DNA of 64,000 nt, from the NCBI GenBank assembly GCA_016647705.1, contig CM028326.1, positions 25,683,901 through 25,747,900 on the forward strand. The letters are read 5' to 3'. The DNA comes from Eucommia ulmoides. Taxonomy: Eukaryota > Streptophyta > Magnoliopsida > Garryales > Eucommiaceae. Positions 24,511 through 64,000 of the stretch are shown here, in pieces. How positions within the stretch are numbered: the first letter of the stretch is position 1; every line of letters begins with the position of its first letter. The notes under the pieces are model-generated. The model was not told where the DNA came from and did no database searches. It saw only the letters and a program-made list of their open reading frames with translations. A program made the position numbers and the translations under genes.

Positions 24511-24512
<2 letters not shown>

Positions 24513-24624
24513 ATCTGATTTTCTCTCACTAGACAAAAATTTCAAGCCACGTCCATTGAAACTCTGAACCCAGAATCATATATAACAGTTAATGCTTGCA
24601 TTTCACCGAAATTGAAAGCTCAAA

Positions 24625-26910: not shown

Positions 26911-27119
26911 ATTTAAATAAGTTTGAAATGATAGATAAATAAATAAAAAACACATAAATATTTCACTTACTACACTTTTTATTTATAAATATATATTCTT
27001 TTTTATATTCTTTGTTTCTTATATAAGTGTAAATAGAAGTAATGATTTATTTATTTTTTCCTTCTTATGCAAATAATTTCTTTGTTTTTTGGTAAATGGA
27101 GAAATAAAAAAAAAACAAA

Positions 27120-30100: not shown

Positions 30101-31213
30101 TTCTCCTCCTATGATTGGTAGCAGCGTGGAAGAACTTAGTGTTTTTATCCCCAACAGACAACCACTAAATCTTGGATTTTTGGTGCCAAAAAATTTCTTT
30201 TTTCTTGAGGATGTCAGCATAATCCCTTCTCAAGACCCTTTCCAGCACATCCAATCTATTAGAAAATTTAGTATCTTGGTATTTTTGGATACCCTAAATT
30301 CTAGCAAAAAGTTGTTTCTTAATTTTGAATATATTCCCAAAAACCTCCTTATTCCAAATTTTGATTTATTTAGTAAAATTTTTAAGGTTATAACTCAAAT
30401 TACCATTATCACTAATCCAGGTATTGTCCAAGAAGGATTTGAAGTCAGGGGGTGTTCAAGCCACATAGCTTCAAATCTGAAAGGACGGGAAAAATTTGAA
30501 AACTTGAGACTAAGAACATGGTTCAGGAGAGGAGAATGATTAGAGTACGTACGCGGAAGGTTTTCAACCCTAGCTTCAAGGAAAACGGAGCACCAATCCG
30601 CATTAGCCAAGGCCCTATCCAGTCTTTTGCTTAATCTGAGACCATGCTTATTAGTTCTAGACCAAGTCATCGTCGACCCACTAGCGCCCAGGTCATTCAG
30701 GCCGCAAGAAGCAAACTTGGAATTAAAGGTATTAATACGGTGAATGTCCTAAGCACTAGAGGGTCCACTTGTCTCAGATTGGGTGCTGATGTCGTTGAAG
30801 TCACCTACTGCCAACCAAGGAGAATTAATGTTCTGGGAAAAAAATTTCATCTCTTCCCAAAGTTTTTTTCTTTTGCTGGGGTTCGGATGGCCATAGACGA
30901 CAGAAAACATCCACTCCTCGAAGCCCACCATAGACACCTTGGCATGAATGACCTGATTGGTGACATGCATTTGGCTAACAATAGCTTTGTTTGGGCACCA
31001 GAGGACCCATATACCCCCAGAGCGGCCAGTAAGATCAATGTGAGACGCCGTCGTATAGCCTAGAGAAACAAAGAAGTTCCCCATGCTACCTAGATCTACT
31101 TTGGTCTCTAGCAAGACAACAACCTTCGGCCTTTTAGAATTGAAAATGTCCCAAAAAGCATTCCGAAATTGGCCATTTCCGGTGCCTCGGCAGTTCCAAG
31201 TAAGAATCCGCAT
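27120..31213 (-). pseudogene. L1 ORF2 polyprotein (endonuclease, RT, zf-RVT, RNase H), broken
   Basis: This is the polymerase ORF of the LINE, expected length about 1300 residues. The FADD catalytic box, the endonuclease N-terminus (LTWNCRG) and the RNase H aspartates (TDGSAL, ESD) are all readable. The frame is interrupted by multiple stop codons, for example next to the FADD box and before the zf-RVT region. A plant L1 with a C-terminal RNase H is an established type. Confidence 0.8.
27192..27208. repeat. G homopolymer in the LINE 3' region
   Basis: A run of about 14 guanines within the RNase H tail; a possible sequencing or length-variation site. Confidence 0.7.
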
Positions 31214-31539
31214 GGTGATTTTAGAAGGGAAACTTGGGAGGGGCTCCGATTCACTGAGCTGCAGTAGGTTTTTGCTCCTCATCACTAGCATGTCCCATGC
31301 TTGCACACTCTCTAGCGAGACCTCTATTAATAGAGGTTTTGGTGTTCGCTTTTCCATTAATTTCACCAAGAGTCTTACTTCGTCCACCAGCTAGAACACC
31401 TCCACACATTTAATCAACTCTTCCGTGAGCTCTATGAACAGGGAGAAAAAGAATCTTTGGAGGAGATTTGTTCGAATCTCTTCCATAGCTAGGCCTTAGA
31501 ATAAGGTTGGAGTCTTGGGGTTTCGTTGGTTGAGGGGGG

Positions 31540-33245
31540 TGTTTGGAGATGGAAGGGTCCTAGGAAGGAGAAGAAGAATGTGGTAGTGAATTGGTTGAGA
31601 CTGATGGAGGGTTATTATGATGGTTGGTAGGCGTGACTGTAGCGATTGTGCCATGATGGACAGCTCCTTTCCGAGACACCTCCACCCCTGCCTCTTGAAG
31701 ACCTGAATCACTAGCAGTCACCGGCATGACCTTGAAAGAAGAGGCCATACATTTTCCAACTGTGTTATTGGAGCCCTGAGCCATTGAACTTTGTCCCTTT
31801 CCAAGGTGATTAACTTCAACCCTTTGGTCAGGTTTGTCCGTTTCAAAGTTTCTTTTAACCCAACCACTATGGTTAAGGTTAACATCCTCATTTGTTTGGT
31901 GGGCTTTACCCATACTCGAAGGCCTTGCTTCCATTCTTGGCTTATTTTTATAGAGGTGGCTCGTTTGGCCCTTTTTAGCTTTAGGCTCAGCACATCCTAA
32001 ATACAAATTGTGGCCATTTATGGTGGGCCCTTTGCTTGCCCCATTAATGTCTCGTTCGGGCTTGCTGTTCCCAAATTTCCTCTGCCTCTTAACCAGAAGC
32101 CATGGCCCGTAGCCATCCTACCCAGCATCTAGGGTAACGGGTTCCTCAAGCCCTAGGTCTTTCCCAATGGAAGTGACATTAGCCTTATGATTATCCTTGG
32201 CTTTGGAACTCGAGTCGATGCCCGTTGGAAAGCCCTCATCTTTTCCGGCGACTTTTCGATTTTCTCTGTTGAGTTTTTTCCATGGGGCACATTTCCATAC
32301 GAAACACGTCCACATGTATAACAAAGCCCATGCAGACTCTCGTACTCAGCTTTAAACACCATCCCTCTCGTACGAAACCTGGCAACAAGAGGTTTGTTAA
32401 GATCAATTTCTACACAGATTCTCGCGAACTTTCCTATGTATTTCGCTACCGTATTCCTATAAATTTTGACCAGTCTTCCTAATTTTCTTCTGATGCTATA
32501 AATGACTGGAGCCTCGTAGTATTCGAACGGAATATTTGGAAGTCTAACCCAAACTGTTGTACGCGATTCTGTCGCATACTTTGGTCTAAAATCCGGCTCC
32601 CACTTTCAGACTGTGAGGTAATGATCAAGGATGACCCAAGGGCCCTTAGTAAGCACCTTATGAGCATCAACCACTCGATCAAACTTAGCCAAATAGAACC
32701 TATAATCAAGATTAATGAGCTCGAAATACCCTTGCAACTTCCAGATCATCCTAGCTTTTTCACATAGGATCTTGTATCCAATCGATCGTCCCATAAGCCT
32801 GATGATTAGCGTATCCTTCCATCTTTCTCTGATTTGAGATAAGATGGAGTCAGGAATGTAAACCTCTGGAATTCCGTCTCCATCCATGTCCTCATCTAAA
32901 TTAGGGTTTATCTCACCAGCTCATGCCTCATCGTCCGCATCAAAATAAACTTCCTCCAAGATTTTCTTGGGAGAATTGCCATTCCCATTCAGCACATACT
33001 TGAAGGATTTCATTTGGACACTTCTTGCGAGCTCAACTTGAGTTTGTTTTTGCGGGAGCTCCATCTCATGCTCATCCTTGCTCATTTCCTCTTCATCTTT
33101 ATTTGATTCCTCCATCTCTGTAATGATTTCAAGATTAGTATGATCATTCTTGATCTCTTTTTTAACTTCGCTCGATCCCATCATCTTCCTCCGAGGATAG
33201 TTCTACAATCTTTTCTTTAGGAGTTTCTCTCTCTAGACAAGCCAT
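31540..33245 (-). pseudogene. L1 ORF1 (DUF4283 and zinc knuckle), broken
   Basis: Nucleic-acid-binding ORF1 of the LINE above. Domains are seen in three frames: MACLERE... (33245 down), the DUF4283 region (32887-32606), and KYIGKFARICVEIDLNKP with GLCYTCGRVSYGN (32450-32270). At least one frameshift lies near 33170 and one or more stops lie before and after the DUF4283 domain. The knuckle reads CYTCGxxSYGN rather than the usual CxxCGxxGHxxxxC. Confidence 0.7.
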
Positions 33246-36574: not shown

Positions 36575-37168
36575 CTTACCTTGCAGTTACTCAACTCGAC
36601 GATGTAATTGCATAGCGGAGCATAGTGGTGACAGTTCAACAGAGTGTAATTGTGGTTCGGTACAGTGGAGCATACTTGACTTTCAAAGGGTTTGATTGAG
36701 GAACTCATAGATTACACGACGATCGACGCAATTAAGAGCTAGAAAGCCACAAACAGATTGGAGCAAAACGACGTGCCGTGGGTGCGAGGGGATAGTGAGA
36801 CGAAATTAGATTTGGGTTATTTTTTCTTTTTATTTGAAATTAGACATCGGTAACCAACAGCAAATTTGTAGGCGATAAAGGCTGAGAAGGAGATGATTTT
36901 GTGAAGATGGAGACGACGAAGAGAGAAAGAGATAATGTAGGCAACGTGAAACAGGGCAAGGAGAAATAACTTGTATGACGGCGGCGCGTGAGAAATGAAT
37001 AGGGAGAGGTGACACTTGGGCAAAGAAAGAGACGTGGCGGAGAAGACATGAGAAGTCTGCTAAAGTCGGATGAAGAAGATTTTCCTGTTGGCCAAAGTTG
37101 GATAAAGAAGATTTTCAGAGGGTACGCGTCGATCTTCACAGTCCTCGCCGACACCGCTGATCACCTAT
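36573..37168. other. GC-richer block left of the solo LTR, no recognised gene
   Basis: Sequence around 36700-37160 is richer in GC and purines than its surroundings and continues at 39604-39720 on the other side of the solo LTR. It may therefore be one old gene or transposon remnant that the LTR interrupted. No protein family was recognised in any frame. Confidence 0.4.
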
Positions 37169-37452
37169 TGTTGATCCCGAGATTTTGATGGACAATTAAA
37201 TGTTGATGTTTTTTGTGGAACTAACGAATTTGTTGAGTATTTCAGTTTGTAAGTTCCATTGAAGATATTATTATGAAGAAGTTGAGATGAATGCTAAATG
37301 TATCGCTGATCACCTATTGTTGATCCCGAGATTTTGATGGACAATTAAGTGTTGATATTTTTTGTGGAACTAATGAATTTATTGAGTGTTTCAGTTTATA
37401 AGTTCCATTAAAGATATTATCATGAAGAAGTTGAGATGAATGCTAAATGTAT
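37155..37452. repeat. Tandem duplication over the left end of the solo LTR
   Basis: A 149-bp unit starting CGCTGATCACCTAT TGTTGATC occurs twice in a row with a few substitutions. It contains host flank, target duplication and LTR head, so it arose after insertion. Confidence 0.85.
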
Positions 37453-39598
37453 GCTAAAGAGACTCAGGTTAAATTTTTACTCTTAATGTATCTCGATTAG
37501 GATCACACATGACACAAAATGAATTTCCAATTATATGTGTTTTTTAATAGGATCCTAATTAGCTAACATATTTGCTCCTATGTGAAATTGAAGAAGAAAT
37601 ATTATTTTAAGAAATATTAGAAATTAAAAATTAATTTAAGAAGTTGACCGAGAAAAGAAATTGGTTAAAGGGGCAAAAACGTCGAAGAAATTGAAATTAA
37701 AAATAAATTAAGGAAGAAGCATATCTCGATCGGTCAACCTACATAGGAGGTTCGGTCAACCGATAAGGAGGTAAAAGGATTGAGTAGTCTCTTAATCGTT
37801 CGGTCTACAGATAAGTCGACCTTTGGAAATTAGTTGAACTCTCTGAATTGTTCGGTCGACAGCTAGGCCGACCTATGGCCAAAAGAGAAACTCTCTGAAT
37901 CGTTAGGTCGACAGATAAATGGGGGAGGTCGATTTGTGAAACTCACTGAATCGTTAGGTCGACAGACGAATAAGCAGAGGTCGACTTATGGGCGAATAGG
38001 TTTTTGGCTTGGGCTACATCCTGAATCGAGCGATCGACTTATGCCTTCTGGTCGGTCAACCGATGGACAATTTCAGGATTCGAGGATTTTATGGTTTTGA
38101 TCCAAAAAGTAGCCGTTGCTAGTCGTTTCATGGTTAGGAGATGAGAGATATCTTAGGGATCTGATGGTATTTAAAATATATAGTTGATATTTTATTATCC
38201 CTATAGATATGGTTTAAATATTTTGATTATTCTCAATTTGGTTGATGTAATTCTTTCTATCTTATCTAAGTAAGATTAAGAAAATGTTTGAAGGACTAAA
38301 TTGAATATTTTAAAAGATATAATTGAGTGAATTATATCAGTCATAATGATATAAGGAGTCTATTGAAGTAATTATTTGTCATGATATATAAGAATTAGCC
38401 GTTAGAGGGTTTGTTTTAATTTCATATAAATAGATCTGCGTTTTTGAGGTTTCAATAATCTCAATTATTCGTATCTTAAGAGCTATTCAGGTCTTGTACT
38501 TTCTAAGAGTGATCATTCTGAAATCATACAGAGTGTATTGTGAGAATTATTCTTGAGAAGATTTGGTATGGATAATCGTTACTACCGACTTGAAGTTTCG
38601 TTGCTAATTATTTCTTATTCGGTGGATTCCTAGTGAGATCATTCTAGGTTTTTGCTATTAACTGTTGTGTGGTATTATTGTTTAATTCTTGGAATTTTAA
38701 TATTTGAAATCGTTTTTCTGATTTTTAAATTGAAAATGATTTTGAAACGATTTCTTGAGAAAATATGATTACGTGCTAAATTGTTTGCTACCTGCGTTTT
38801 TATTAAAATTAGATTTTGAAATTCTCATTGTGTTTCTATCACTAGTATCGGGACATTAAATGAGTTCAAATTTATCTAGGGTAGTAGAAGCTCCGAGTGG
38901 AGAAAAAAAAAAAAAAAGACTTATCAATTTTGTAATTGGTGAGTTGTGTGTCAGATTAGATACTATTGGGAGTATATAATCAAAGGGTAGCTGATTTCAA
39001 TCTCTTCGGGTAAAGAGATTGAGGTTTTGATCTTTGCCTAGAGTATAAAAAGATTAGGTGTTAATTCTTCCTGAATAGAATTAATTTTGAATGAATTTGT
39101 AACGGTTCAATCCTTACCGGGTAAAAGGATACTTGGAGTGTTTTTTTGTGTGAAGTTTAATTCTTAACCTAAGTATAAAAGAATTAGGTTAATCTTTAGC
39201 CTGAGAAAAAAATAGGGTTATTCCTTAGCTTGTGAAAAGGAATTGTAAAAGTTGATTCTGAGCCTGTGAAAAGAATCATTTTGTAAATCTTTGGATCCTA
39301 CCTAGTTAAAAGGATCATAGTGATTAGTGGGTGCAAGTCTCTGCGGAGCTTGGGGGATTGGATTAGCTAAGAATAACTTTGTGAATTAGTATAAATTTCT
39401 GGTGTGATGCTTTCTTTACATTATTTATATTTTGTTATTTAGGTGTTCACTTAGTTGATAATATATTTCTGCTGCTATAAAGATAATAATTAATTTAGGA
39501 TAAAAATTAATTATTTGATTTTTTTAAGTATTATTATTTGGATTATTTTTTTTATCTACCCAATTCACCCCCCTCTTGGGTAGCTTACTGAGCCAACA
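37169..39598 (+). mobile_element. Solo LTR of a large-LTR retrotransposon
   Basis: Begins TGTTGATCCCGAG and ends GAGCCAACA. The 5-bp direct repeat CCTAT lies at 37164-37168 and 39599-39603. It is related end to end with the LTRs at 57079-59230 and 63076 onward (in the opposite orientation) and with the piece at 52734-54750. No internal region is attached, so this is a solo LTR left by recombination. Its first 130 bases, together with about 15 bases of the left flank, are duplicated in tandem (37155-37303 and 37304-37452). A GTCGAC-rich minisatellite lies at 37720-38060. Confidence 0.85.
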
Positions 39599-47117: not shown

Positions 47118-50100
47118 TATGTTTCTATGAGTTAATCAGATGGTTACTCATCTCCTCATTCCCGTCTGCGAGAGAGAACCCATTGAGGTACATCAAATGA
47201 TTAGTCTGCGGAAGACCTCCACCCCTACGATTCATCGCCATAGAATCAGGTACGCTTATTTATATGTGTTTAAAGAACTCTTGATAATTTGACATGCTGA
47301 TTTAAATTTAAAAAATCTATTGAGATTTATAGGAAAAATTCACAACAAGTGATATCAGAGTCTACTTCATGTTGAATTATTATTATTATTTTAATCATGT
47401 TTATGATTTTGGGGTGTAATCATAAATATGGAATTAGGAAATAGATAATCTCGGAGCTGAATGTGTGCCTGAGCTGTAATCTGTCTATGTTTTTCCTTTC
47501 TTTTGGTGTGGTCATTCTCTGGCCATGGATTCAGTTTCCATGGTCTTGTATATCCAATATTCACCAGCATGTGCCCATTGGTAGAATATATATAGCTTAT
47601 GCAAATTGCACTTTTGACAAAAGTGATCACTCCTAGTATCCATTAGCATCACACAATTACTCTCGGTCCTGCAAGATTGATTCATCTCTTACGTATTTCT
47701 TCTGCGTCGATGGACTCGTGTATTGGATTGTTGGTATGCGGGAATCGGCGCAATTGTTTTTGTCCGTTTGTGGAATCGAGTAGGCTTACTTACCTAGATA
47801 AATTCGGATAGGAAGACATTCATAGGTTGGTTCATATTTTCGGAAGTCGCTTATTAACCAAAACGGTCAACTGACGTTTAAGAATCGGTCAAACGACCTA
47901 TTGAGGGACAAAGACCAATTTGGCCATTGGTCAAATCGGTCAACCGCCATTCAGGGCTGGTCGACCAATAGGAATGCCTCAACGTCAAAAACTTTAACTC
48001 GTTGCATGGCATTCGGTCAATTGATCTTTAGGACGGTCGAATGATAATATCTTATATCTTGAAATAAACTAAAATGAAAAAATATGTTGTCAAAGCAACC
48101 TCTATTGTGTAAGTTCTTTATTTATTTTTTATTTTGGAATATTAAGATGTTGATATTTGTTATTTATACGAACGATAACCGGCCCAAAAGAAGATTATTA
48201 TTTGGCCAAATAATAAACGTACACGTGGTAGTAAATGTGTGATGATTATCACGTTTTCATGTGAACAGTAAGTCGTTCCAAAAAAAGACTTATTATTTTA
48301 CATGATTTATTGTCAACATTTGATTACTGCATTGAGTACCACTTATAAGTTGGTATTTCTGTCCAAAGACTAAACATCAATGTTGTGCTAGGTATCTTGT
48401 AATGAGGGCCCACCAATACAATTATTTTGTTTATGTTGTGCATATAAATATGTGTTGATATTTTGATTAATAAATTATCATAAACCTTTAGATTATGAGT
48501 TTATTATTCGTTATTGTTTTCTGTTTAGTTATTGTTTCTGTTGCTACTATCCAACATGAATTCTATTCCAGTGCTTAATAGCACAAACTTTAAGAATTAG
48601 AGGGAGAACATTTCAATTGTTCTTAACTGCATGAATCTTGACTTTGCACTAAGAAAAGAGCAACCTTCACCTCTCACTGAAAAAAGTTTCCCTGTGACTA
48701 AAAGGGAACATAAGAGGTGAGAGCGTTCTAATCGCATAAGTCTTATGATGATCAAACGCAGCATTCCAGAAACATTCAGGGGTGGTATATTCGATAAGTT
48801 GACTGCTAAGACGTTCTTTGCAGAAATAGATAAATGTTTTATAAAGAATGAAAAAGCAGAGAAAAGTACTTTTTTAGCTAATCTTGTCTCGATGAATTAT
48901 AATGGAAAATGGAACATAAGGAAGTACAATATGGAAATGTCTAATATCATTTCGAAACTAAAGGCAATAAAATTAGAACTGTCTGAGGACTTGCTCGTGC
49001 ATTTAGTACTCATTTCTCTTCCTGCACAATATAGTTAGTTTACGGTGAGTTATAATACTTAAAAGGATAAATAGACTCTTAATGAGCTCATATCTCACTG
49101 TGGACAAGAAAAAGAAAGAATTAAGAGAGAAAAGACTGAAAATGTCCACTTAACCACAACCTTTAAGGATAAGAAATGATAAAGAGATAAAGGTCAGGAA
49201 GCTGCAGTGGGAATATAACAGTCCAAATTGCAAAAGAATTAGAATCATGAATTTATTGATTTCTTCTGCAAGAAAGAAGGACATATGAAAAGGGATTGTT
49301 CTAAATGCCCCGCATGGCATGTAAAGGAAGGTACGTTTCTAATTTGGTTTGTTCTGAAATTAACTAATGAGAATTCTGCCATACTTTGGCATAAGCATCT
49401 AGGATATATCTCTAAACAGAGAATAGAAAGACTTGTATCTGATGAAATTCTTGATCCCCTTGATTTAACAAATTTCAAAGTTTGTATTGGATGTGTAAAG
49501 GGGAAACAAACAAACATCAGGAAATTAGGTGCCAACAGGAGTTCTGGCGTCTTAGAACTAATACATATTGATATCTGTAGAACATTCCCTATGGCATCTA
49601 GGAATGGACAACAATATTTTATTATGTTCATAGATGACTATTCTCATTATGGGTACATGTACTTGATTCATGAGAAGTCCCAATCCTTGGACGTATTTAA
49701 AGTATTCAAAGTTAAAGTTGAAAATTAACTAGGCAAGAAAATTAAGACTGTTAAATCTGACCGTGGTGGTGAATACTATGGTCAATATGATGGATCAAGA
49801 GAATAATGTCCAGGACCTTTTGCTAAATTCCTATAGGAATCTAGAATCGTCTCACAGTACCCCATGTCGGGCAAACCCAACATAAATGGTATTGCTGAGA
49901 GGCGAAACAAAACGCTTAAGGACATGGTAAGAAGTATGATAAGTCATTCTTCTTTGACAGAATCACTATGGGGAGAAGCACTTAAGACTGCGCCATATAT
50001 CTTGAACATGGTACCAAGTAAAGCGGTAGCTGAAACCCCTTATGAACTCTGATTAAGCAAAAAGCCTTGCATAAGACATTTACACATTTGGGGTTGTCCA

Positions 50101-52724
50101 GTTGAGACAAGGCTTTATAGGTCAAATAAAAAGAAACTAGACTCAAGAACAATTAGCTGCTACTTTGTTGGGTACGCTGAATGGTCAAAAGGAATTAGGT
50201 TTTATGATCCTTTGAATAAGATTTTTTTCGAGACGAGAAATGCAAGATTTCTTGAGGACATTGAGTTTGAAGGGGGGAGATAAGGTTATTAGGAATGTTG
50301 TCATTGAAGATGAATTAATTTCCATTCCAAGCATTGTTATTGACAATGATCAGGTTCATGACATTGTTCAAGAACAATGCAAGACAATAATGAAGAACTC
50401 CCCGTTCAAAATCAAGATATTGCTCATGAGGAGCAAACTCAACAACCTCAAGAGGAAGTGTCACTAAGGCAATCCACTAGATAAAGGAGAAGTGTGATTT
50501 TAAGTGATTATATCGTCTTTCTCCAAGAACATGAGTTTGGAATAGGGTCAATGGAAGATGATCCAATTAACTTCCATTAAGTCAAATAAAGTTTTGACTC
50601 TCAAAAGTAGATTGATGTCACGAATGATGAGATGAAATCTATGAAAGACAACGACGTTTGGGATCTTGTCAAGTTGCTTGAAGGTGTGAAGTCCATTGGT
50701 TGCAAATGGATATTTAAAACCAAGAGAGATTTGAAAGGCAATGTTGAGAAATATAAGGCTCGTTTAGTCACTAAGGGTTTTACTCAAAAGGAAGGCATTA
50801 ATTATAAAGAGACTTTCTTTCTAGTTTCATCAAAAGACTCCATTAGGGTTATAATGTCACTTGTAACTCATTTTGATTTAGAGTTACATTAGATGAATAT
50901 AAAGATTACGTTTCTTAATAAAGACACTGATGAAACAATATATATGGTGCAACCAGAAAATTTTGTATCAGGCAATCCAAAGTCTAAAGTTTGCAAGCTA
51001 AAGAAATTCATCTATGGACTTAAACAAGTTTTTCGTCAATGGTATCACAAATTTCGTCATCTCATATGGTTTTGAGGTAAATACAGTTGATAATTGTGTA
51101 TATCAGTGAGAGTAAATTCAATTTTCTAGTGCTATATGTCGATGATATACTGATGGCTAGCAACGATATAGGTTTATTGCACGAAACCAAGAGGTTTCTA
51201 ACTAAGAATTTTGAAATGAAAGATCTTGGAGATGCCTATTTTATATTAGGAATAAAGATACACTGAGATCACTCTCAGGGTATCCTTGAGTTATCATAAA
51301 AGAGTTATATCGATAAGGTGCTTGCTAGATTTGACATGAAAGATTGTGCATTGGGAAATACTCTTGTAACTAAAAGAGACAAGTTTAGTCTCACTCAATG
51401 CCCCAAAAATGAGATGAAAAAAAAATAGATGCAAAAGATTCCTTATGCGGTGGCAATAGAGAGTCTCATGTACGCTTAAGTATGTACGCGTCCGAATTTA
51501 GCGTTCATAGTTAGAATGTTGGGCATATACTTAAATAACTCTCGAATGGATCATTGGAAAACAGCTAAACGGGTTATGAGGTATTTACAAAAAACAAAAG
51601 ACAACATGTTCACTTATCGGAAGACAGATCATTTGGAGATCATTGGGTATTCTGATTCTGATCAAATTTCTAGTTGTTAAATAAAGAATTCAGAGTAAGA
51701 TAATATCTATAAAACATATGAGAATAAACTCCATGATTGTGGATCCGCTCACTAAAGGTTTACCACCTAAGGTATTTCATGAGCATACTACTTGTATGAG
51801 TGTGGTTTTATTTGATGATGTGTGGGTTTAGTGGGAGTTTGTGTTTATTGAATGTTTTTTTTATTAAATACATATGTTTGATTTCTGCAAAATAAAGTAG
51901 ATAGATTAAAGTTTATTTACTTTGAATGTGTTCTTTCTAATTGTGGTTTAAACATAAGGATAAAAAGACTAAGGATTGATCTTACTATGGAATAAAGAGG
52001 GACCAGTTGGAAATAGGCATGTTTGAGATCACATTGCATGTAATTTTCTGCTGCACATCTATATTTGATCTATGTCATTGCATATATTTGGTATGGTGAT
52101 CATTGATGGATCTAGTTACGAATATGAATGTAATGGAGGTTGCTTTGATCTCATACTGGTATAGGAGATGGACCAAATTTTAATTGGGGAATGTTTCCAA
52201 GGAAGATAACACTTTTGCGTACACTCAAGACTAAGGAATATAGTTGTCTTCAGAATTTTATACGTAGCCCAAAGAGAGATTGTTAGGAAATTAATTATTT
52301 CCTATGTGGACTCATATGATTTAATTAAACATTTATATTATGGGCAATCAATTATAAAGCCCCAAATAAGTGATCTAATTAATTGGACTCAGGAAATATT
52401 AAATGAGTATGGGTTTTGCAATGTGTAGTAACCTATTAGGCAATTAGGGTTAATGGGGGCCTGAGTTAACCTAATCTATAAATAACTTATATCAGAGGTA
52501 TGGTCCCCGAGACTAATCAGACGATTACTCATCTTCTCCTTCCAATTTGCGAGAGAGAACGCATTAATGTACATCAAGTGATTAGTTTGCAGAAGATCTC
52601 TACCCATATGATTCATCGCCATGGAATCATGCTTATTTATTTGTGTTTAAAGAATTCTTGATGATTTGATATGTTGATTTAGGTTTAAGAAATCTATTGA
52701 GATTTATAGGAAAAATTTCCAACA
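47118..52724 (+). mobile_element. Copia LTR retrotransposon (Oryco/Ivana-like), broken
   Basis: The 3' LTR (52281-52724, about 444 bp) starts TGTTAGGAAATT and ends AATTTCCAACA, and follows the purine tract AAAGAGAGAT. Only the last 230 bp or so of the 5' LTR remain (about 47118-47347), followed by a primer-binding site like GATATCAGAGT. The leader is long (47350-48550). Gag starts near 48556 (MNSIPVLNSTNF). It is followed by a zinc knuckle near 49260, integrase (HKHLGYISKQRIERL near 49390; HIDICRTFPMASRNGQQYF near 49566; FIDDYSHYGYMYL), reverse transcriptase (CKWIFKTKRDLKGNVEKYKA near 50700; YVDDIL near 51140) and an RNase H remnant near 51600. It is a fossil with many breaks, well over ten. 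The lineage is judged from gag and integrase text. Confidence 0.88.
52281..52724 (+). repeat. 3' LTR of the second Copia element
   Basis: TGTTAGGAAATT...AATTTCCAACA with a TATAAATA box at about 52479. Its last 225 bases match 47118-47347. The right edge abuts the truncated large LTR that begins near 52734. Confidence 0.8.
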
Positions 52725-52733
52725 CAATTTTCC

Positions 52734-54750
52734 TAATTAATTATTATGTTGTTATGCAGTAGAAATGTATTTAACTAAGTACACACCCAAACAACAAAAA
52801 TATAATAAAACAGCACACAACGATTTATCCTAGTTTACTAAGCTACTTTTACCTACGTCCAGTCTGTCGAGCTCCACATAGCTTTTAAAATCCACTAATC
52901 CTCTAATTCCTTTCCCAGGTAGGAACCAAACCCTTACAATCATTTTCACAGGTTCAGGATTAACCCAATTCTTTTTGCAGACTCAGAATCAAACTTTTAC
53001 ACTCTTACACTATTATATTTTTTTCCTTTTCATAGTCTTAGGAAGAAACTTATTTTTTTTTCAGGCTAAAGAATAACCTAATTCTATTATAAGAAGAATC
53101 AAAATCTAATATTTTTCATAGACTAAGGATCAGACCCTAACTACCTTGATTAAACATCGTCCCAAATCTATATGTCTAATTTATTCAAACTCATAAATAT
53201 AAAAAAATTCACAAGTTTATTTCCACATGAACTTCTACCACATCAAAACAATTATGATCAATTAATGTCCCAAAAACTATGTGATAGAACTATGTGAGGA
53301 ATAAATATGATTTAATCAATTTAAGGCACAAATAATATGTAATCAGATTTTGTAGGCAAAAATCGCTTTTTAAGATATGCAAGATTTTCAAACAGATAAA
53401 CGATTTTTTTAAAACAGATATTCTAAGTAATTAATTAGATAATCTTAGAAATCAATTAAATTAACTTGGAAAGATCTCACCAGGATTTCTTAAAAATTGA
53501 TAAGATAACTCAGTAAAGAAAAAAAATCGATGATAAAATTTTTTGTGGGCTTGGATTAAGAACACTTTAAGAATCGCTTTCTTAGAAATACTTCAGCAAG
53601 CTTTCACTCTCTTTAAAGCAAAGGCTGATTAAAACTCTTTGTTTTTGAATTATTAAAGTTGAAAATGCAATTCTCTATAAATAGAATTCTAACTAAGCCT
53701 ATAATGATTAGTTTTCAAAAGATATGACCTAAAATGTCACTTTAAGACCCATATATCATATACTATCAAATTAGGTATGTTTTATTTAAAAATACTTTTT
53801 AGAAAATCTTTATTTGGTCCCCAAAACTTTTTAAATTCAAAACACTTAAAGATAGGAAGTAGTTTCAATACAAATAATAAATTAATATATGAACCGAATT
53901 GATAGGATCTTAGTGATACATGATATATAATAGTAAAATACTCAAATCACCAGAATATCTCATTTTCAAAGTTTCAAACCATAGGATTTGGTAAAAGTTC
54001 TCACAAAATCAAAACAATCAACTTTGATTGTTCTACCACCGTCGGTCGACTGACCCTTGCAACTGTCAACTTTCTGACTGTTGCACCTCTTTTTGTCGGT
54101 CGATTCGCCACTCGGGTAGTTGACCGATTCAACCAATGGGTTTTCTCATTTTTCGTTGTTTAAGCCACAAGTTACGTTAGTCGATCGATCTCTATTGTTG
54201 GTTGACTGAATCGGCTAGTGAGTTCACATTTTAACTTCTTTAAGCTACTTTTTTCAGTAACCGACCAACCCGTTTTGTTGGTTGATCAAATTAACCAGAA
54301 ACTCATCATTTTATGCGTTAAAAATATTTTTTTTAATTCGACATTTTGTCAAAAATATTTTTATGATTTTAACACTTTATAAAAATCATTTAAGATTTTA
54401 AATTTATCACTTTTTATTATGACACACAAGATTACTCATTTTAAAGTGTCATGCATGATTCTAATTTGGGTTGCATTAAGAGCATAAGAGTAATGCGTTA
54501 TTTTTACCTACAAATACAAAAAATCTTCAATGCTCCAAAAATCTTCAATGTCTTCAATTTGCACCCGTTTTGTATTTGCTTCATAAAATATTTGTTTTTT
54601 TTTTATAAATCTTCAACGATTGATCAGTTTTCATTCATTATTTTTCTCATAAAAACACATGAAACTTCTAATATGAAATCACTCAATAAAACCATTAGTT
54701 GTATAAAATATCAGCATTTAATTGTCAATCAAAATATTAGGCTCAACGTC
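52734..54750 (-). mobile_element. Truncated large LTR (same superfamily as the solo LTR)
   Basis: Aligns in order with 57160-59230: TTAATTATTAT, the GGTAGGAACCAAACCC block, the CTCAGAATCAA block, a GTCGAC/GGTCGACTG block at 54040-54300, and the terminal CAATCAAAATATTAGGCTCAAC. The first 80 or so bases are missing on the side where the Copia element ends. It is clearly more diverged than the pair at 57079/63076. It is a fossil. Confidence 0.75.
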
Positions 54751-55379
54751 ATCAAATGATTATTTTTTATTTATAATAAGCTAAAGTGGGTCTAATATAA
54801 GTTTTTACAGTAGAGAAAACAAAAATCAAATTAAAATACAAGGATAAAAGACAATTAAACAAAAAATGAAATAATAACAATAATCGTAATATTTTTTTTT
54901 TAATATACCCATGAGTGTTCTCATACTCATACAGGGTGTGTAAGACTAATCTTGTTCGGAGTGTGTGGTTACTCATCTCAACAAGTTTTTTTTTTCGTTC
55001 GGAGTGCGTGACTGTCTCTCTCAATAAATATTTTTCCGTAGATTTAAAATCTTGACCTTGCAAAGATTAGTCAACTGTTTTAATTCAAGTAGTCCTTATC
55101 ACTAGTATAACAATAGTAATAATAATAATAAGGGAAAAACTTTTTGCGGTCCCAAAGTTAAAAAAAAAAAAAAACTTTTGAAGGACTATGGGTTTTTGGA
55201 TCAGCCCAAAACTCCCACGAAAATTTTCTTGCCAATTTGGCCCCTTGGTAGATTTGTAATTTACAAATCCATGCCACTGTCTGACCAGAATTTCACTAGT
55301 GTTCCAAATTACAGAATTACCCTTCAATAATTACAGAATTTATAAAAATGTCATTTTCGCCATTTTTTTTTTCAAAAAT

Positions 55380-55432
<53 letters not shown>

Positions 55433-55776
55433 CACTTGTGTTCCAATTTTTCTCAAATTTTATTTTTTCATAAAAATTTCAATTAATTTTTTTTTAAAAT
55501 ATCATAAATCCCCTGATTATATTTCACTTAATTTTATTTCAATTTTTTTTTATAATTCCACCAAAATTTAATTCTTAATAAAAAATCACTGAAATTTATA
55601 TTTTATTCAAAATTTATAACTTTTTAAAAATACCTTAAATACCCTTACATGCATTCGATTGAATTTTAGTTTATTTTTTGAAATATTTTATGAACATTTT
55701 AAAATATAAAAAATATTAAATTCTATTTAATTTAAAAATCCATTAAAAATACTTTCAAAATCAACTAAATCTGATT
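54751..55776. other. AT-rich intergenic DNA with a TA microsatellite
   Basis: No gene. A repeated TTCGGAGTGxGTG phrase at 54956-55012 and a TA run at 55382-55429 are visible. Confidence 0.55.
55382..55429. repeat. TA microsatellite
   Basis: About 24 TA units. Confidence 0.95.
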
Positions 55777-56880
55777 AAGTGGATATCTATTTAGATATCG
55801 ACTAAGTGGATATCCACTTCATTAAGTAAAAATCCATGAAAAATAATGTAAGTAGATATCTACTAAATATAATTAAGTGGATATCCACATAATAGAAACA
55901 ATCAGAAAACCAAACCATCGATAAACATGGCTTTACATTTTCACATTCTCGCGAAAATTGGAGAACTCAAATGAAAACCATCAAAAAAATCAGAAACCAT
56001 CGATAAACATGCCTTTACATTTTCTCATTCTCGTGAAAATTGGAGAACTCAAATGAAAACCATCGATAAACATGCCTTTAAGTGAATATCTACTTAGATA
56101 TCCATTAAGTGGATATCTACTTAATTATATTTAATAAATATCCACTTATATTATTTTTCACTTAATTTAATTTCAATTTTAGTTTATTTTTTAATTATTC
56201 TATGAACATTTTAAAATATAAAGAATTAGAGAAATCAGAAAATAAAAAATTCCATTGAATATTAATCTTCAGTTACATTCCACTAGAAAAATACATAAAT
56301 CCACTTAACCCTTAAGTGGAAATCCACAAAAAAAAAAAAAAAAAAAAAAAAATGGAAATCCGCTTAAAATTAAGACAATTGACGTCTGTCGTCTTCGTCA
56401 ATCGTCACACCGTCGCGCTCCCTCCATCTTCAACGGTCTTCAATAAGTAGATAAGTGGATATCTACTAAAAATCATTAAGTAGATATCCACCAAAAACAA
56501 TCAGTGAATATCCACTTAACTAAAAAATAACACAAATATTTAAACAATAAATTTAAACAATAAGTGAATATCCACTGAACTAAAAAAATAACACAAACAT
56601 TTGCATTCAAAGAATAAAAATGACAAATAAATCAAGAAATCATTAGAACTAATTTGAATCTAATTAGGCTATCCTAAATAATATCAAAATTCTAATTCAA
56701 TTTTATTTCTCTTCCTTCGTGTATCAAGCAACCAAACAGTTGAAACGCATAATTATTCCATCAAGTAGATATCCACTTGACTGACGGTGGAACACAACAA
56801 CTCAGAGAACAGGGAATGAGGGTAAAAAAAATCAAGTGGATATCTACTAAAAAAATCAAGTAGATATCCACTTGAACCAA
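55777..56880. repeat. Dispersed array of a 16-bp palindrome
   Basis: The palindrome AAGTGGATATCCACTT and one- or two-base variants start at about 55777, 55804 (perfect), 55850, 55875, 56080, 56107, 56453, 56478, 56502, 56562, 56763, 56834 and 56858. Half-copies lie at about 56138 and 56296. Spacing is irregular (24-350 bp) and the DNA between copies is not repeated, except for an 82-bp tandem duplication at 55900-56070. No coding frame is present. Confidence 0.85.
55900..56082. repeat. Tandem duplication, about 82-bp unit
   Basis: The ACCATCGATAAACATGxCTT unit with CGxGAAAATTGGAGAACTC occurs twice and begins a third time, inside the palindrome array. Confidence 0.85.
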
Positions 56881-57078
56881 AAAGATTCAAAAATTGATTC
56901 ATCATCAAACAATAAGGTAGAACATATTTAATTTTACATAAAAAAAATGTAGAACAACGCTAATTTTTGTTCATCAGTAGCATACCCTACAAACTGAGGT
57001 ATAACCCCATAACATTCTTCAGATGAAGTTAAGAAATCATGATTTTTCAAAGGAATGAGATATCATCCCCAACCCAAC
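56881..57078. other. Short intergenic gap
   Basis: AT-rich DNA between the palindrome array and the 3' LTR. Nothing recognised. Confidence 0.5.
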
Positions 57079-59230
57079 TGTCGGCCCAGTGGAATACCCA
57101 AGAGGGGAGTGAATTGGGTAATTAAAAAATATCAGAGAAAAAATACTTTAATAACTCAAATAATTAATTTTAATTCTAAATTAATTATTATCTTTATATC
57201 ACAACGGAATTATAAAATCAACTAGGTGCACACTAAACAATAAAAATAAATAAAGTAAAGATTGCAGCATACCAGAAATTTATACTGGTTCACCAAGCTA
57301 CTCTTGGCTAATCCAGCCCTCCGAGCCCCACGGAGAGTCACACTCACTAAACTCAAGATTCATTTAAAGGTAGGAACTAAACCCTCACAAAGATTCTTTT
57401 ACAGACTCAGAATCAACTTTTACAAAAAAAATAAAATTCACAGGCTAAGGAATAACCTCTACTTTTTACAGGCTCAAGAATAACCTAATTCTTTTTAACA
57501 CGAAGGCTAAAGAATCAAAACCTCACAAAACACTCCAAATATCCCTTTACCCGATAAGGATTGAACCGTTACAATTCACTCACAAATCAATTCAATTCAG
57601 GAAGAATTACTACCTCAATCTCTTAATAGGAAGAGACTGAAACCCATCTACCCTTAGATTAAATACTCTCAACAGTATTTAATCCGTCACTCAATTTACC
57701 AATTAAAAATTGACAAGTGATTTTTCTCACTTGGAACTTCTACCACCCCAGATAAATTAAAATTCAATTAGTATCCCAAAACTAGTGATAGAAAAGTGAG
57801 TGACTCAAAATCTGATTTTAAACAAAAATGGGTAGCACGTAATTAAGCACGTAATCAGATTAATTCAAGAAATTGTTTAAAAAATATTTTTTAATAAAAA
57901 TCAGACAACAATTTCTAAAGATCAAATTCCAAAAAATTAATCAAGCCATACTATATAGAAAATAATTTGGAAAGATTTCAACCGGAATCCACCGAAAAAG
58001 TAATTAGAGCAATGTTACTTCAGATTCGGTGGCCACAATGATTAACAACAAATAATTCTCAAGAATGTCTCTTAGAAAAACTCTCACAAAAACTCGATAT
58101 GATTTCTCTTAGAAAAGCTCAATATGATTTCTTGATTTCTTAATTTCTCTTAATGATATAAAAAACGCAAGTCTTTATAAATGAGATTAAAAATAGCTCT
58201 CTAACGGTTAGTTCTCATTTGTCCTGACATTTAAATACTCTTTTAGACCCCTTATATCATTAAGATTTCATTCTGGTTCAATTTACTTAATTATAACTTT
58301 TAAATATTTCAATTAAGTCTCCCAAATATTTCTCAATCACAATTAAATAGAATAGAAATAATTATATGTACAAAATTGAGAAATATTCAAACTTAATGAA
58401 TCAAATCAATAGGGATAACATAATATGTGTAATATATCTTAAATAAATAAAATCCTTAAAATCTCTCATAAATCCTAACAAAAAAATGACTACTTTCAGA
58501 TTTAAATTCGGAATTCCATAATATCCTGAAACAGATACACAAGTCGACCGACCAAGTTCAGTAGTCGACCGCTCGATTCAGGATGTAGCCAAGCCAAAGA
58601 TTATGTACCCATCGGTCGACCTATCTGTCGACTTAGAGATTCAGAGAGTTTTATTTCTCTTCACAGGTCGACCGCTCTGTTGACTTATAGATACATAGAG
58701 TTCATTCTTAAGTACAAGTCGACCTAGCTGTTGACCGAGAGATACAGAGAGTTTTCCTTTTTTGTCCGATCGACTTACCTGTCGACTTATGGATGCTGGA
58801 TCACTTTTCTAAACTCATTTTTAATTCATTCTTATTAACTTTTTCCCCCATTTAACCAATTTCTTTTATTGGTTAGCTCCACTAAATACTTTAAATTCAA
58901 TTTTAACCAATTATAAAAAAAAAAATCAATTACACATAAGAGCAAATAATTTAACTAATTAAGATCATATTAAAAACACATATATTTATAAAAATTATTT
59001 AAAAAGTCTTTTTATGTCGTATGTGATTCTAATTGAGATATTAAGAGTTGAAATTTTAACCTGAGTTGTTTTTCCCTAAGTTCTTCAAATGCTTCAACCT
59101 CTTAATTCTTCATCATCTTTATCAACATATCTTCATCATCAGGAACTAATAAACTGAAACACTTAATCAAACTATTAGTTCCACAAAAAATATCAACGTT
59201 TAATTGTCCATCAAAATCTTATGATCAACA
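57079..59230 (-). repeat. 3' LTR of the large-LTR element
   Basis: On the minus strand it begins TGTTGATCATAAGATTTTGA and ends CACTGGGCCGACA. A GTCGAC-rich minisatellite of about 52-bp units (TCGACCxxxCTGTxGACTTA...GAGAGTT) lies at 58542-58790. Confidence 0.85.
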
Positions 59231-59799
59231 ATCTCCCCATTTTTTTTTTATGACAATTAACTTTGATGTTTTCTTCAAAACAATAATATAACCACACTCC
59301 CCCTGAATCTGAGGACGAGTTTTATAACTCATTGAAAGCATAGTAATGAAGATATTAAAAATTAATCAATAAAGCACAAAAAATAAACATAAACTCTCCT
59401 TAAGATATTCAATAAAACATCAACTAATTCTCCCCCTTTGTCATCTTAAAAAAAAATTAGGAAGGGCGGAACACACTAATTCTACTTTAGGCAAACACAT
59501 AATTTATTTTGAAAAAAATAAACCTAAAGTAATTAAATCAGAATATTGTAAAACACATTGAATCAATTCATAAAATCAATTTTATGTATTAAGATTATTT
59601 TCAACAAATACCATGTGGATCATCATTAGAGATAAAAAATTTAACTAAGTAGATCATGTCTAGTTAATCCATCAAAATTCATACACAAGAAATCAAGGTT
59701 CACCAAAATCCTAATTTAGCTATTACAGACTGAAATAGTAAATGTGGAATTTGTCTCAATAACAAATTTAAAAAGAGAATAGAAGATAAAGTCTAACGA

Positions 59800-61110
59800 G
59801 GGCTTTGTCCCGAAAAGTGATAATAAAGTCTTATCGGACTAGTGGCTGGCTGCTGAGGATACGGAACTCCTGGCTGAACAATAGGCCCTGGAATCATTTG
59901 TTGATGAAACGACGTTGACGGTCCTACTCCAGATGGCCCTGCTCTAGATAGCTTTGTTGTAGTTGGTCTTCCAAAAGACTATTGTGCTCTAAACATAGGA
60001 TGTCCTGTAAAGTGTGGCTGAGCACTGTACTGCTTCTGGTATCCATGATGAGATGACTGTATAAACTGAAACATTGGTTCCAGATTCCCTGTGATTTTCC
60101 CAAATCCAGCTTCCATATTCATATTCATTTGAACCATTTTATTTTCTAGCCCAGTCATCCGATCATCCATCAAATCCGCATGTATCCTTAGATCAGCAAT
60201 CTGATCATGAAGAAAATCCATCTTCTGATCTATGCTCATTTCTTCTTCATTATCTTATTTCTTACCCACAGCCTACATTCTCTGTATTTTCTGATTTCTC
60301 TTCTTTACCCATCTATTTCCTCTGTACTCATATCCCATTAACGAAGCATTACCCACATTGATCCATCCGGGTATGATTGTCATGAATATTTGCTCATCAG
60401 GATCAATTTCAATTCCAAAGTGATCAAACAACCTTTGGAGTGCATCAACATAGGGTAGTACTTGAGAGGGTTTCTAAACATGATACTTTATGTGGTCCAT
60501 CATGATATGAGCTAGATCCAATTTTATCCCTTCAACAATCTCATTCATCAAATAAAGATCAAAGTTATTTACATTAGCATGACTTCTCCCTCTAGGCACA
60601 ATCGAATAGGTTAGCACCAAATGAAGGAATCGATACTCAATAGATAATGTTCATGCTTTGTCTCCCTCTAAATCAAATTTCTCAACAATTTCCATTCTAT
60701 TGAAACTTATCGAAAGCCAGTGAGGGGTATTGTACGGAACTATGTCTCCTCTTGGTATTTCTAAAATATCACACAATAACCCCCTATCATACCAGATTTC
60801 TTTTCCTATAACATAGGATGAAATTTCAATATTATTGTAAGTGAGATTGTTGTAGAACATTCTCACCCACACCGGCATCCACTCATTCCTCTGGGTGGCA
60901 AAATTGACCCATCCCAAATTTATAAAATATCTTTCAATATTGATATTTTTCTCTTTCAAACTATCAAAATCTATAGGTTTGCAACCTAAAACCTTTTGGT
61001 TAATAAACCCCTCATTATATTTTTTCCCATCCTTGTCCTTTCGAAAAAATACATTGTCAAATGTAGGCCTATTGGCACGATTATTGATTCTAGGTATTTT
61101 TCACACAAAT
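59800..61110 (-). CDS. Retroelement ORF resembling the putative plant transposon protein domain
   Basis: Minus-strand text includes YFINLGWVNFATQRNEWMPV, GKEIWYDRGLLCDILEIPRG, then a histidine/leucine segment and WINVGNASLMGYEYRGNRWV, followed by a coiled coil (MSIDQKMDFLHDQIADLRIH). The pattern of a conserved N-domain then a short coiled coil resembles the plant-only Transposase_32-type proteins, often found inside retrotransposons. The similarity is judged by eye and its function is unknown. It belongs to the fossil element at 57079-64000. Confidence 0.4.
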
Positions 61111-61625
61111 CTAAAATAACTCAACCAAAATATCTTAATAGATTAAACCTAAATCAAGATCCAACCGAAACCCTAGAATTTAGAGAAAACCAACCTTTAT
61201 TTTCGTGAGTAATGAGCCTCCAATACTCAGATCCCAAGCCTTAGACCTTTAGATTCAACCCAAAAATATTCTAATCCAAGCCAAAATGAACTGATTTCGT
61301 GAGGTTTATGCTTGAAAGAACTTCGGAGATGAAGGGCTTTAGAGAAAAAAAGGTTTTTAGTTTCGGATGAAATGAATTAAACAAGTCAGGGTATTTATAT
61401 CCCGCAATGGTCGGTCGACAACCATCTTAGAGGCGGTCGACAGATGAATGCAGCGCGTCTCTCGATATTCCAACCTGCTACTATCGATCGACTCGTGAGT
61501 CGACTGCTCATTTTGAGCTGTTTGATTTTGTGCATTTAAACCAAATTTGATCAACTTAGCTAAATTTTTACCTCTTATTTTTATCCACATATATTTTATA
61601 AAAAATTAATTACTCACGCATTTAA

Positions 61626-61649
61626 ACACACACACACACACACACACAT
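61626..61649. repeat. CA microsatellite
   Basis: About twelve CA units in the internal region of the large-LTR element, ending in CATATATC. Confidence 0.9.
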
Positions 61650-62235
61650 ATATCACAAACATCTAATTCTCAAAATGAACAGGTTCAGTCTCCCTAACAA
61701 AATTAATAAACTTAAACTTAAATTTTTTTGACGTACCTGGATCATCTTTGGAAGCAAGTAGTGTGTGTACCTTTGGTGGATTACTAATTTCTGACTTGGT
61801 ATCCTTTGACTCCACCAATACTTGATTTTTCACCTTAATTTCTTCCTTCTTAGGAATGGCTATTTTTTGAACTAATTCAGTAAAAACTTCTTTGCCTTTG
61901 TTTGGTGCTTTAAGCTGCTTTGGTATAACTTTGTAAATGAACTTTTTTTTTGTATTAGTATCTTGCCGTTTGTTGTGGATAAGCTTTGTCAGCTCTCACA
62001 TATTAAGCTTGTTGCTTCTGTACTCTTGTATTTGGCACATGTTGATTCTTCTTATTAGGTACATTGAACCTCGGTTCCCTCTTTGGCAGGGCATATTCAT
62101 TGTACCTTTTTGTCTATTCAAATCTTCTTATCGGCACGTAGTATTCATTGTAACTTTGTCTAAATCTCTGATTTGTACCTGCACCAAAATTTTCTCTTTT
62201 TAATATCCAGTTGTTTCTGGGTCCGACAGGGTAAC

Positions 62236-63016
62236 CATGTAATAAATAACAAGAATTTTCAAAATGGCCAAATTTATCATAATAAAAACACTTAATACTG
62301 TTAGCACGCCTCTTCGAATAGTCAGTGTTTCATACAGAAGCATAATATTGTTTGCGATTTTGAGAAGCAGCTTTAATAACTATTGGTTTTTCAATAGATT
62401 TAGTACTCTCAACATCCTTGAATTTATCAATTGCTTCTTTAAACTCCTTTTGAGTCTTCTCAAGTAACTGTTCATTGGTGCTAACGTTTACCTGTAAACC
62501 AAAATTCTTTTTATGTATAAATTCAAGATCTTTTTTAAGAATTTGACACTCATTTTCAATAAAATGGATTTTCACACGAACTCTATCAAGCTCACACATT
62601 GTATTGTTCAATTCAATACTCAAGGCCTCATTCAAGGTTTCAACATTTTTTCTTTTAAATTCATTCTGTTGAAGATCATGAAAATCATTTTTCAAAATCT
62701 TAGTCTCATCCTCAAGAGACTCAATTTTATCACACAACTTATTAATTTCAGATAAAGCATTTTTAAATTCAACAGTTTCAAAATATTTGTCCAAATTCTT
62801 TTTCTTGAGAGATTTGACAGTACTAAACTTCTTATTTTCAAGAGTTGCATTTTTTCGCTCTAATTTAAAATTCTCTTTTCCAAAAACATACGTAAGAGAA
62901 ACAAACGTCTCAATAGCTTTATCTGCATTTATATTAGTCTCATGATCAAAACAATGACTATTAGAAGAAATAGAATTAACAATAGTACACATAACTTCAT
63001 AATCAAGACACTCCAT
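62236..63016 (-). CDS. Gag-like coiled-coil protein with zinc knuckle (retroelement)
   Basis: Starts MECLDYEVMC about 60 bases after the 5' LTR. It has a long heptad-rich coiled coil (about residues 60-200: LEDETKILKNDFHDLQQNEF and similar), then a basic segment and CFYYDKFGHFENSC, a CCHC knuckle (about 62248-62290). Coiled coil plus knuckle is the layout of gag in large plant Copia and related elements; it would bind RNA and assemble particles. It belongs to the fossil element at 57079-64000. Confidence 0.6.
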
Positions 63017-63075
63017 GTGATCGTGTTTAGCTATACTGTGAAGTATATCGAGCTGAAACCAGCTCTGATGCCAAT

Positions 63076-64000
63076 TGTTGGCCTAGTGAAATACCCAAGA
63101 GAGGGTAAATTGGGTAATTAAAAAATATCAGAGAAAAAATACTTTAATAACTCAAATAATTAATTTTAATTCTAAATTAATTATTATCTTTATATCACAG
63201 CGGAATTATAAAATCAATTAGGTGCACACCAAACAACAAAAATAAATAAAGTAAAGATTGCAGGACACCAGAAATTTATACTGATTCACCAAACTACTCT
63301 TGGCTAATCCAGTCCTCCGAGCCCCACAAAGAGTCGCACCCACTAAACTCAAGATTCCTTTAAAAGTAGGAACCAAACCCTCACAAAGATTTTTTTACAG
63401 GTTCAGAATCAACTTTTACAAAATTTTATTTTCACAAGTTAAGGAATAACCTCTACTTTTTATAGGCTCAAGAATAACCTAATTCTTTTTAACACGAAGG
63501 CTAAAGAATCAAAATTTCACAAGACACTCCAAATATCCTTTTACCCGGTAAGGATTGAACCGTTACAATTCACTCACAAATCAATTCAATTCAAGAAGAA
63601 TTACTACCTCAATCTCTTAACAAGAAGAGACTGAAACCCAACTACCCTTAGATTAAATATTCCCAACAGTATTTAATCCGTCACTCAACTTACCAATTAA
63701 AAATTGACAAGTGATTTTTCTCACTCGGAACTTCTACCACCCCAGATAAATTAAAACTTAATTAATATCCCAAAACTAGTGATAGAAAAGTGAGTGACTC
63801 AAAATCTGATTTTAAACAAAAATGGGTAGCATGTAATCAGATTAAATCAAGAAATTGTTTAAAAAATATTTTTCAATAAAAATCAGATAACAATTTCTAA
63901 AGATCAAATTCCAAAAAATTAATCAAGCAATACTATATAGAAAATAATTTGGAAAGATTTCAACCGGAATCCACCGAAAAAGTAATTAGAGCAATGTTAC
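63076..64000 (-). repeat. 5' LTR of the large-LTR element, cut by the window edge
   Basis: Matches 57079-58020 base by base with few differences. The remaining 1.2 kb should lie beyond 64000. Confidence 0.85.

Follow-up and report, generated by a model that had tools for sequence, protein, structure and literature searches.

The closest described systems are the VANDAL Mutator-like elements (MULEs) of Arabidopsis, in which sequence-specific, element-encoded anti-silencing has been worked out (PMC5735166, PMC10398659). As described in PMC5735166, the VANC proteins of these elements carry DUF1985. VANC proteins also have DUF287. VANC21 binds the motif YAGTATTAY, which is arrayed in introns, intergenic regions, and terminal non-coding regions, and the regions affected by VANC6 hold AGTTGTCC/AGTTGTAC (PMC5735166). 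These motifs are short, those of VANC21 are non-palindromic and arrayed in one orientation, and the arrays evolve by tandem repeats (PMC5735166). VANC is described as removing methylation from the entire element (PMC5735166, PMC10398659).

An array of palindromes in Eucommia invites comparison with these elements. We consider it probable, by analogy with VANC, that these palindromes are cis targets of an element-encoded DUF1985 anti-silencing protein, and that the copy in the window is a gene-less target. The window is the whole stretch of DNA that was analysed, 64,000 nucleotides at C2:25683901-25747900, and the search space was the 947-Mb genome in 391 contigs. The palindromes and the modules that they form in the window are as follows.

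55777 to 56873, no strand assigned: palindrome array, 15 copies of AAGTRGATATCYACTT, 15 matches versus 0.42 expected
55777 to 55819, plus strand: 43-bp module of two palindromes flanking a weaker GATATC core, seen in the sequence
56080 to 56122, plus strand: the 43-bp module again (over 50 bp, 56078-56127 and 55775-55824 are 88% identical)
12107, 13779, 23860, and 44569: lone palindrome matches outside the array, in the form with R and Y allowed and with at most three mismatches

The observation of a palindrome array is confirmed. All 15 matches to AAGTGGATATCCACTT (the GG form) with at most three mismatches lie at 55777-56873, with none elsewhere in the window, and 100 dinucleotide shuffles of the window gave a mean of 0.42 palindrome matches and a maximum of 3, which bears out the statement of the earlier note that the recurrence exceeds chance. 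Its count of 13 near-full copies of a 16-bp palindrome was reproduced as well: with R allowed at position 5 and Y at position 12, there are 13 sites with at most two mismatches in 51001-58500, all of them at 55777-56873. When three mismatches are permitted in this form, the window yields 20 matches, made up of 16 in the array and the four lone ones. The variants at bases 5 and 12 had been described as transitions, which they are (four G>A and six C>T, respectively), but position 16 (five T>A and one T>G), position 6 (three G>A), and others vary too. The spacing is indeed irregular, yet part of the array repeats in the form of the 43-bp module. Modules of this type recur genome-wide, with at least 41 matches versus none for a reversed control. 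Chance and a simple satellite are both rejected as the source of the array. In Rfam, the window is without a match at the gathering threshold.

The earlier note had also reported that no transposon ends surround the array, and had left it unexplained. Neither statement holds, since the array is inside a MULE that has ends and a 9-bp target site duplication, and that runs from 55132 to a point 1.7 kb beyond the window. Insertion of an LTR retrotransposon in the MULE has displaced the right end out of the window. The parts of this arrangement are listed in order.

55123 to 55131, no strand assigned: left copy of the 9-bp target site duplication TAATAATAA, identical to the right copy at 9/9 bases
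55132 to 57078, plus strand: left 1,947 bp of the non-autonomous MULE, beginning GGGAAAAACTTTTTGCGG, recognised by terminus and duplication
55132 to 55290, plus strand: element terminus common to DUF1985-bearing elements, from similarity to R13, R18, and L033
57074 to 57078, no strand assigned: 5-bp target duplication CCAAC of the nested LTR retrotransposon, with its other copy at L025:1292-1296
57079 to 64000 and on to window-equivalent 65191, minus strand: nested LTR retrotransposon, from LTR comparisons
L025:1297-1846, ending at window-equivalent 65746, beyond the window: remaining 550 bp of the MULE
L025:1847-1855, window-equivalent 65747-65755, outside the window: right copy of TAATAATAA

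Here L025 is the stretch neighbouring the window, where the MULE resumes after the retrotransposon. Minus the nested retrotransposon, the MULE measures about 2.5 kb. Its ends were located by way of the ends of a related element, L005, and the left copy of TAATAATAA sits in a short TAA repeat, which makes it weaker as sole evidence. When pieces of transposase, DUF1985, and coiled-coil sequence were compared by tblastn with both parts of the window MULE, no match was obtained at E 0.01.

The nested LTR retrotransposon is outside the palindrome system. Positions 57074-58018 and 63071-64000 are 92.7% identical, with LTRs starting at 57079 and 63076, and L025:1-1291 is 91.6% identical to 57919-59230. 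Its minus strand was read from what we take to be a primer-binding sequence at about 63060-63075. Older relatives of its LTR are present at about 37167-39598 and 52735-54747. Open frames at 27828-32605, 9098-11416, and 49243-49728 resemble LINE and Copia-type retrotransposons, judging by motifs that are presumably characteristic of them.

MULE target duplications are given as 8-11 bp in PMC6446971, and they often measure 9 bp. Matching 9-bp duplications were found in seven of the eight elements for which both ends were examined, the eighth (L024) being ambiguous. They are exact in five cases, namely the window element, L005 (TATATATTA), L014 (ATATTTTTA), L022 (TTAATTTTA), and R18 (TAAAATAAT), and have 8/9 matching bases in L021 and R13, whereby those of R13 and R18 are partly by construction and not independent, because the left ends of these two elements were sought by a 9-mer search across several kb with at most one mismatch, which gave several one-mismatch hits. 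The left ends chosen for R13 and R18 start with GGG and are similar to those of L005 and L014. For L019, L023, and R16, one end each was examined. The 9-bp duplications and the ends are the signature of Mutator-like elements, and membership in this group is seen both in the 9-bp-type target duplication and in the MuDR-type transposase of full-length relatives. CACTA, hAT, and Helitron ends were considered and then replaced by the ends with 9-bp duplications. The gene-less L005:3678-5384 has apparent long inverted arms of about 300 bp, and in reverse its right arm corresponds to the left arm of L021.

Two full-length relatives could be delimited in the genome.

C1:21059106-21071506: R18, full-length element of 12.4 kb, with both ends and the duplication
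C1:8898697-8916100: R13, full-length element of 17.4 kb, with both ends and the duplication

Another relative, R16, was joined from L028, L016, and L029; one of its ends is at joined position 1992, and the other is outside the fetched DNA. An insertion of about 6.9 kb at joined 2406-9354 (C1:12288406-12295354) separates the R16 terminus from the rest. Transposase matches (PF03108) of 38.9 bits in R13 and 38.8 bits in R18 are over the cut-off, as are those to MULE (PF10551, 39.2 bits) in R13 and SWIM (PF04434, 32.9 bits) in R18, and no transposase exons were found in the fetched part of R16. These elements also carry genes in which a DUF1985 exon is followed by a coiled-coil exon, with two such genes in R13 and R16 and one in R18. 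In R13 and R18, the DUF1985 genes are convergent to the transposase gene and have a window-type terminus at a distance of 1.2-2.1 kb. Within 3.2 kb, L033 combines a terminus, a DUF1985 exon, palindromes, and part of a coiled-coil exon.

The terminus ties the window element to these gene-bearing copies, with identities of 76% over 147 bp in R13, 83% over 129 bp in R18, and 82% over 158 bp in L033. The R16 terminus is 86% identical over 127 bp to the related L005 terminus, and matches that of the window only partly (83% over 92 bp). Genome-wide, the window terminus has 40 scored matches, itself included (the best 40 of 337 candidates), three of which are 1.7-1.8 kb from a listed DUF1985 match.

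Profile scores for DUF1985 are marginal. Relative to the cut-off of 35.1 bits for PF09331 (DUF1985), L032 scores 37.8 bits and L033 34.2 bits, just below. Scores are 28.2 bits for R16 and 17-18 bits for R13, with none for the R18 frame; in R13 and R18, the DUF1985 assignment comes from tblastn matches to the R16 frame at 72-84% identity, and the homologue in L033 was likewise assigned by tblastn. A DUF1985 profile search of the genome, in which 150 of 580 candidates were scored, gave 105 listed matches, 34 of them over the cut-off. The matches often occur in pairs about 5 kb apart, for example at C4:21694371/21699437 and C8:56408364/56413426. Among the 105 listed matches there are 25 pairs 3.5-7 kb apart, and many elements seem to have two DUF1985 gene copies, like R13 and R16.

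The DUF1985 exon has dN/dS values of 0.21-0.48 in 21/21 pairs from seven copies, and the genes thus bear the mark of purifying selection. Stops are present in three of the seven copies compared, and some gene copies in the full-length relatives are broken. The coiled coil is weakly zipper-like, with a bZIP_1 score of 17.8 bits versus a cut-off of 27.6. The DUF1985 proteins of R13, L032, and L033 give weak matches to the Plant mobile domain (PMD), at 19-31 bits with a cut-off of 34.9, hinting that DUF1985 and PMD may be related. A search for DUF287 gave no matches and was equally silent in control genomes.

The palindromes are confined to particular parts of the full-length elements. With at most one mismatch allowed in the 14-bp core, there are 37 sites in R18 and 68 in R13, which are not independent because they have been multiplied by duplication. 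None of the 37 and none of the 68 falls in a coding stretch, as delimited by frames and tblastn (3,129 bp in R18 and 5,002 bp in R13), and these stretches make up 25% and 29% of the elements, respectively. The flanks (17.5 and 12.1 kb) are free of sites at the same stringency, and a laxer cut-off gives one in the R18 flank. The sites that are present occupy the transposase intron (in R13), intergenic space, the intron that separates the DUF1985 exon from the coiled-coil exon, and DNA upstream of DUF1985.

This distribution bears on the possibility that the palindromes are internal sites for the MuDR-type transposase, serving in the assembly of a synaptic complex or marking the element. Palindromes in full-length and gene-less copies alike are what would be expected of sites required in cis, and MURA of maize is described as also inducing hypomethylation of the terminal inverted repeats of non-autonomous copies (PMC10398659). 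However, we regard this explanation as unlikely. The palindrome nearest to an end is at least 468 bp from it in 7/7 elements with both ends, and those of R13 and R18 fill introns and intergenic space. Moreover, of seven better-scoring MULE transposases on the part of C1 that was scanned, none has a strict palindrome site within 20 kb, although these transposases are of different families. The distance to the ends also disfavours the subterminal transposase sites that the earlier note had proposed, as does the location of R13 and R18 sites in introns, between genes, and upstream of genes. In elements of the En/Spm type, subterminal TnpA arrays consist of many short motifs bound by an element-encoded protein, and the elements have CACTA ends and 3-bp duplications. 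The elements described here differ in having GGG...CCC-type ends, a 9-bp duplication, and sites far from the ends.

Local duplication raises a different possibility, namely that the palindromes are functionless and arose as a by-product when hairpin-prone non-coding DNA of the MULE was repeatedly duplicated. Tandem duplication is evident, both in the repeated modules and in R16, where a 221-bp unit at joined 20056-29000 (C1:12306056-12315000) is present 40.8 times within the fetched stretch; this array runs to the edge of the fetched DNA, and the 40.8 copies are those of the fetched part. The consensus unit contains two full palindromes and one partial site, and is related to the transposase-intron and intergenic DNA of R13. 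In this tandem array, conservation is no higher in the motif columns than outside them. Pooled motif columns had diverged at 328 of 2889 positions versus 1955 of 18753 elsewhere, and divergence was lower in 14 of 33 alignments, such that plain divergence also fails to set the motif apart.

However, motif divergence is lower than that of the rest when stratified by base. Compared with matched control words, it is 0.071 versus 0.088 at A/T (11% of 150 words are as low) and 0.146 versus 0.243 at G/C (2% of words are as low). These tests give weak support at best to purifying selection on the motif, which they neither prove nor exclude. A functionless origin is further opposed by the recurrence of the palindrome core with unlike spacings and flanks in two element groups, and by its absence from the coding stretches tested. 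On balance, we find such an origin distinctly improbable.

Column frequencies from 153 and 107 sites in the two element groups indicate that the site extends to about TTMAGTRGATATCYACTKAA in both, and whereas the inner motif columns are biased by site selection, the flanking TT and AA are unbiased. The sequence of the site brings to mind host transcription factors of the PHR1 type, or other GARP/MYB-like proteins, which might drive expression of the element from the array. The GATATC core resembles such sites, and the GG form contains GGATATCC. What we take to be the P1BS consensus for PHR1-type proteins, GNATATNC, fits only 35 of the 153 sites from small elements and 12 of the 149 from full-length ones, however, and its required positions 5 and 12 are the free ones in the palindrome, for which reason P1BS host sites were rejected. 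Introns, a 9-kb tandem array, and gene-less copies would also be odd places for promoter sites. Host-factor sites appear very improbable as an account of the array.

Across the genome, AAGTRGATATCYACTT has 910 sites versus 2 for a reversed control. Those that were listed, about 50 and all of them on C1, occur in clusters. The GG form alone has 199 sites, and its control has none. Twenty clusters on contig C1 were fetched and compared mutually and with the window. In 17 of these, most or all sites lie in DNA common to other loci; in the remaining three (L007, L011, and L012, with 1-3 sites each), no homology was found at the sites. The check proposed in the earlier note, a genome-wide search for palindrome clusters with common outer ends, thus gave a positive result.

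A 24-bp form, TGTTCAGTAGATATCTACTGAACA, has 189 genome sites (none for the reversed control), and 50 listed sites of these 189 make up 19 clusters. For 15 of the 19, one of the 105 listed DUF1985 matches is no more than 7 kb away, whereas the chance expectation is about 0.0016 per cluster, and 11 of these 15 are 0.6-1.4 kb downstream of the match. When R13 and R16 are removed, where the pattern was first sighted, 14 of 17 clusters are near a listed DUF1985 match. The R13 cluster has no listed DUF1985 match nearby, but has DUF1985-type genes as judged by tblastn. For clusters at C3:25772450, C3:29325718, and C5:25888011, no DUF1985 was found nearby among the matches listed.

The GG form is distributed differently. 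None of its 42 clusters (from 50 of the 199 sites) has a listed DUF1985 match at up to 20 kb. Five of these clusters are near a listed terminus, and of the 11 termini in the range that was scanned, counting that of the window, five have a GG site no more than 5 kb away. Full-length elements have mostly an AG form, and a DUF1985 partner matched to the GG variant of the window was not found among the matches listed. Because the GG form is away from listed DUF1985 matches and sometimes near termini, gene-less elements carry a dialect of their own. The two dialects are TTCAGTAGATATCTACTGAA beside DUF1985 genes and AAGTGGATATCCACTT in gene-less copies.

The likeness to VANDAL elements and their VANC proteins is extensive. 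Both have a MuDR-type transposase, a 9-bp duplication, a second protein with DUF1985, and weak terminal inverted repeats in full-length copies, and both have dense short motifs in introns, intergenic space, and other non-coding DNA, with expansion by tandem repeats (as in R16). Because the anatomy matches VANC/VANDAL so closely, we read the array as a cis target of anti-silencing. In contrast, the site described here is a palindrome of 16-20 bp without direction, whereas the VANC motifs are of 8-9 bp and in one orientation, and the gene-less L005 has long inverted arms. The host also differs, in that Eucommia is probably outside the Brassicaceae, and the two systems are likened here by sequence anatomy. 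The three motifs have the letters AGT in common, which is too little to count. Gene-less VANDAL copies are reportedly targets as well (abstract of Sasaki et al. 2022, EMBO J), and the title of that paper speaks of eudicots.

Two further groups of MULEs deserve comparison. The KIU-carrying (Ulp1) VANDAL/Kaonashi elements, as described in PMC13317346, are likewise MULEs that carry an additional VANC-group gene. This type was rejected, as none of the 20 listed Ulp1 matches (PF02902) has a listed DUF1985 match at up to 20 kb. MULE-Solanaceae_1, in the description available from PMC6446971, shares the 9-bp duplication, the absence of clear inverted repeats, and a SWIM transposase. It has an antisense PMD-type gene, and some DUF1985 proteins in Eucommia have weak PMD scores. 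That description does not mention a motif array.

The array thus belongs to the interior of a non-autonomous Mutator-like DNA transposon, whose full-length relatives in this genome have a MuDR-type transposase gene and convergent DUF1985 genes. We propose that the DUF1985 protein would bind the palindrome as a dimer, with one subunit per AGTRGAT half-site, and the zipper-like coiled coil would suit this dimeric reading. Dense non-coding arrays could then recruit enough of the protein to strip host silencing marks, including methylation, from that particular copy, much as VANC proteins act on the VANDAL elements of Arabidopsis. The window element, which has no genes but retains its array and ends, might in this way be de-silenced and moved in trans. 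By analogy, a gene-less target of an element-encoded anti-silencing protein appears to be the best reading of the window copy.

Of the interpretation offered in the earlier note, we retain the dimer-type protein-binding array, now placed within a transposon, as the best inference; the array can be explained without invoking a replication or matrix element. A more specific proposal is that the protein is a dimer-type relative of VANC, such that a coiled-coil DUF1985 protein reads a palindromic site of 16-20 bp, with at least two dialects per genome. We put this forward as a tentative possibility.

Among the matches listed for the open-licence literature, no title concerns palindromic VANC targets or this Eucommia system, and GTGGATATCCAC occurs there in two papers, both with medical titles that are unrelated. 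If DUF1985 does not bind the palindromes, the arrays would mark out a MULE family of which the matches listed for that literature gave no description. A palindromic site, rather than directly arrayed motifs of 8-9 bp, would be a new feature of such systems. The Eucommia elements would constitute an independent case in a plant that is probably distant, combining a palindromic target, target copies that lack genes, and a tandem target array of 9 kb. This case opens the study of co-evolution between motif and protein, of DUF1985 as a DNA reader, and of how dimeric recognition might evolve within DUF1985, and a palindromic target might help direct demethylation to chosen loci. If the proposed explanation is true, many non-autonomous elements would depend on the anti-silencing protein of autonomous ones, or would have drifted from it.
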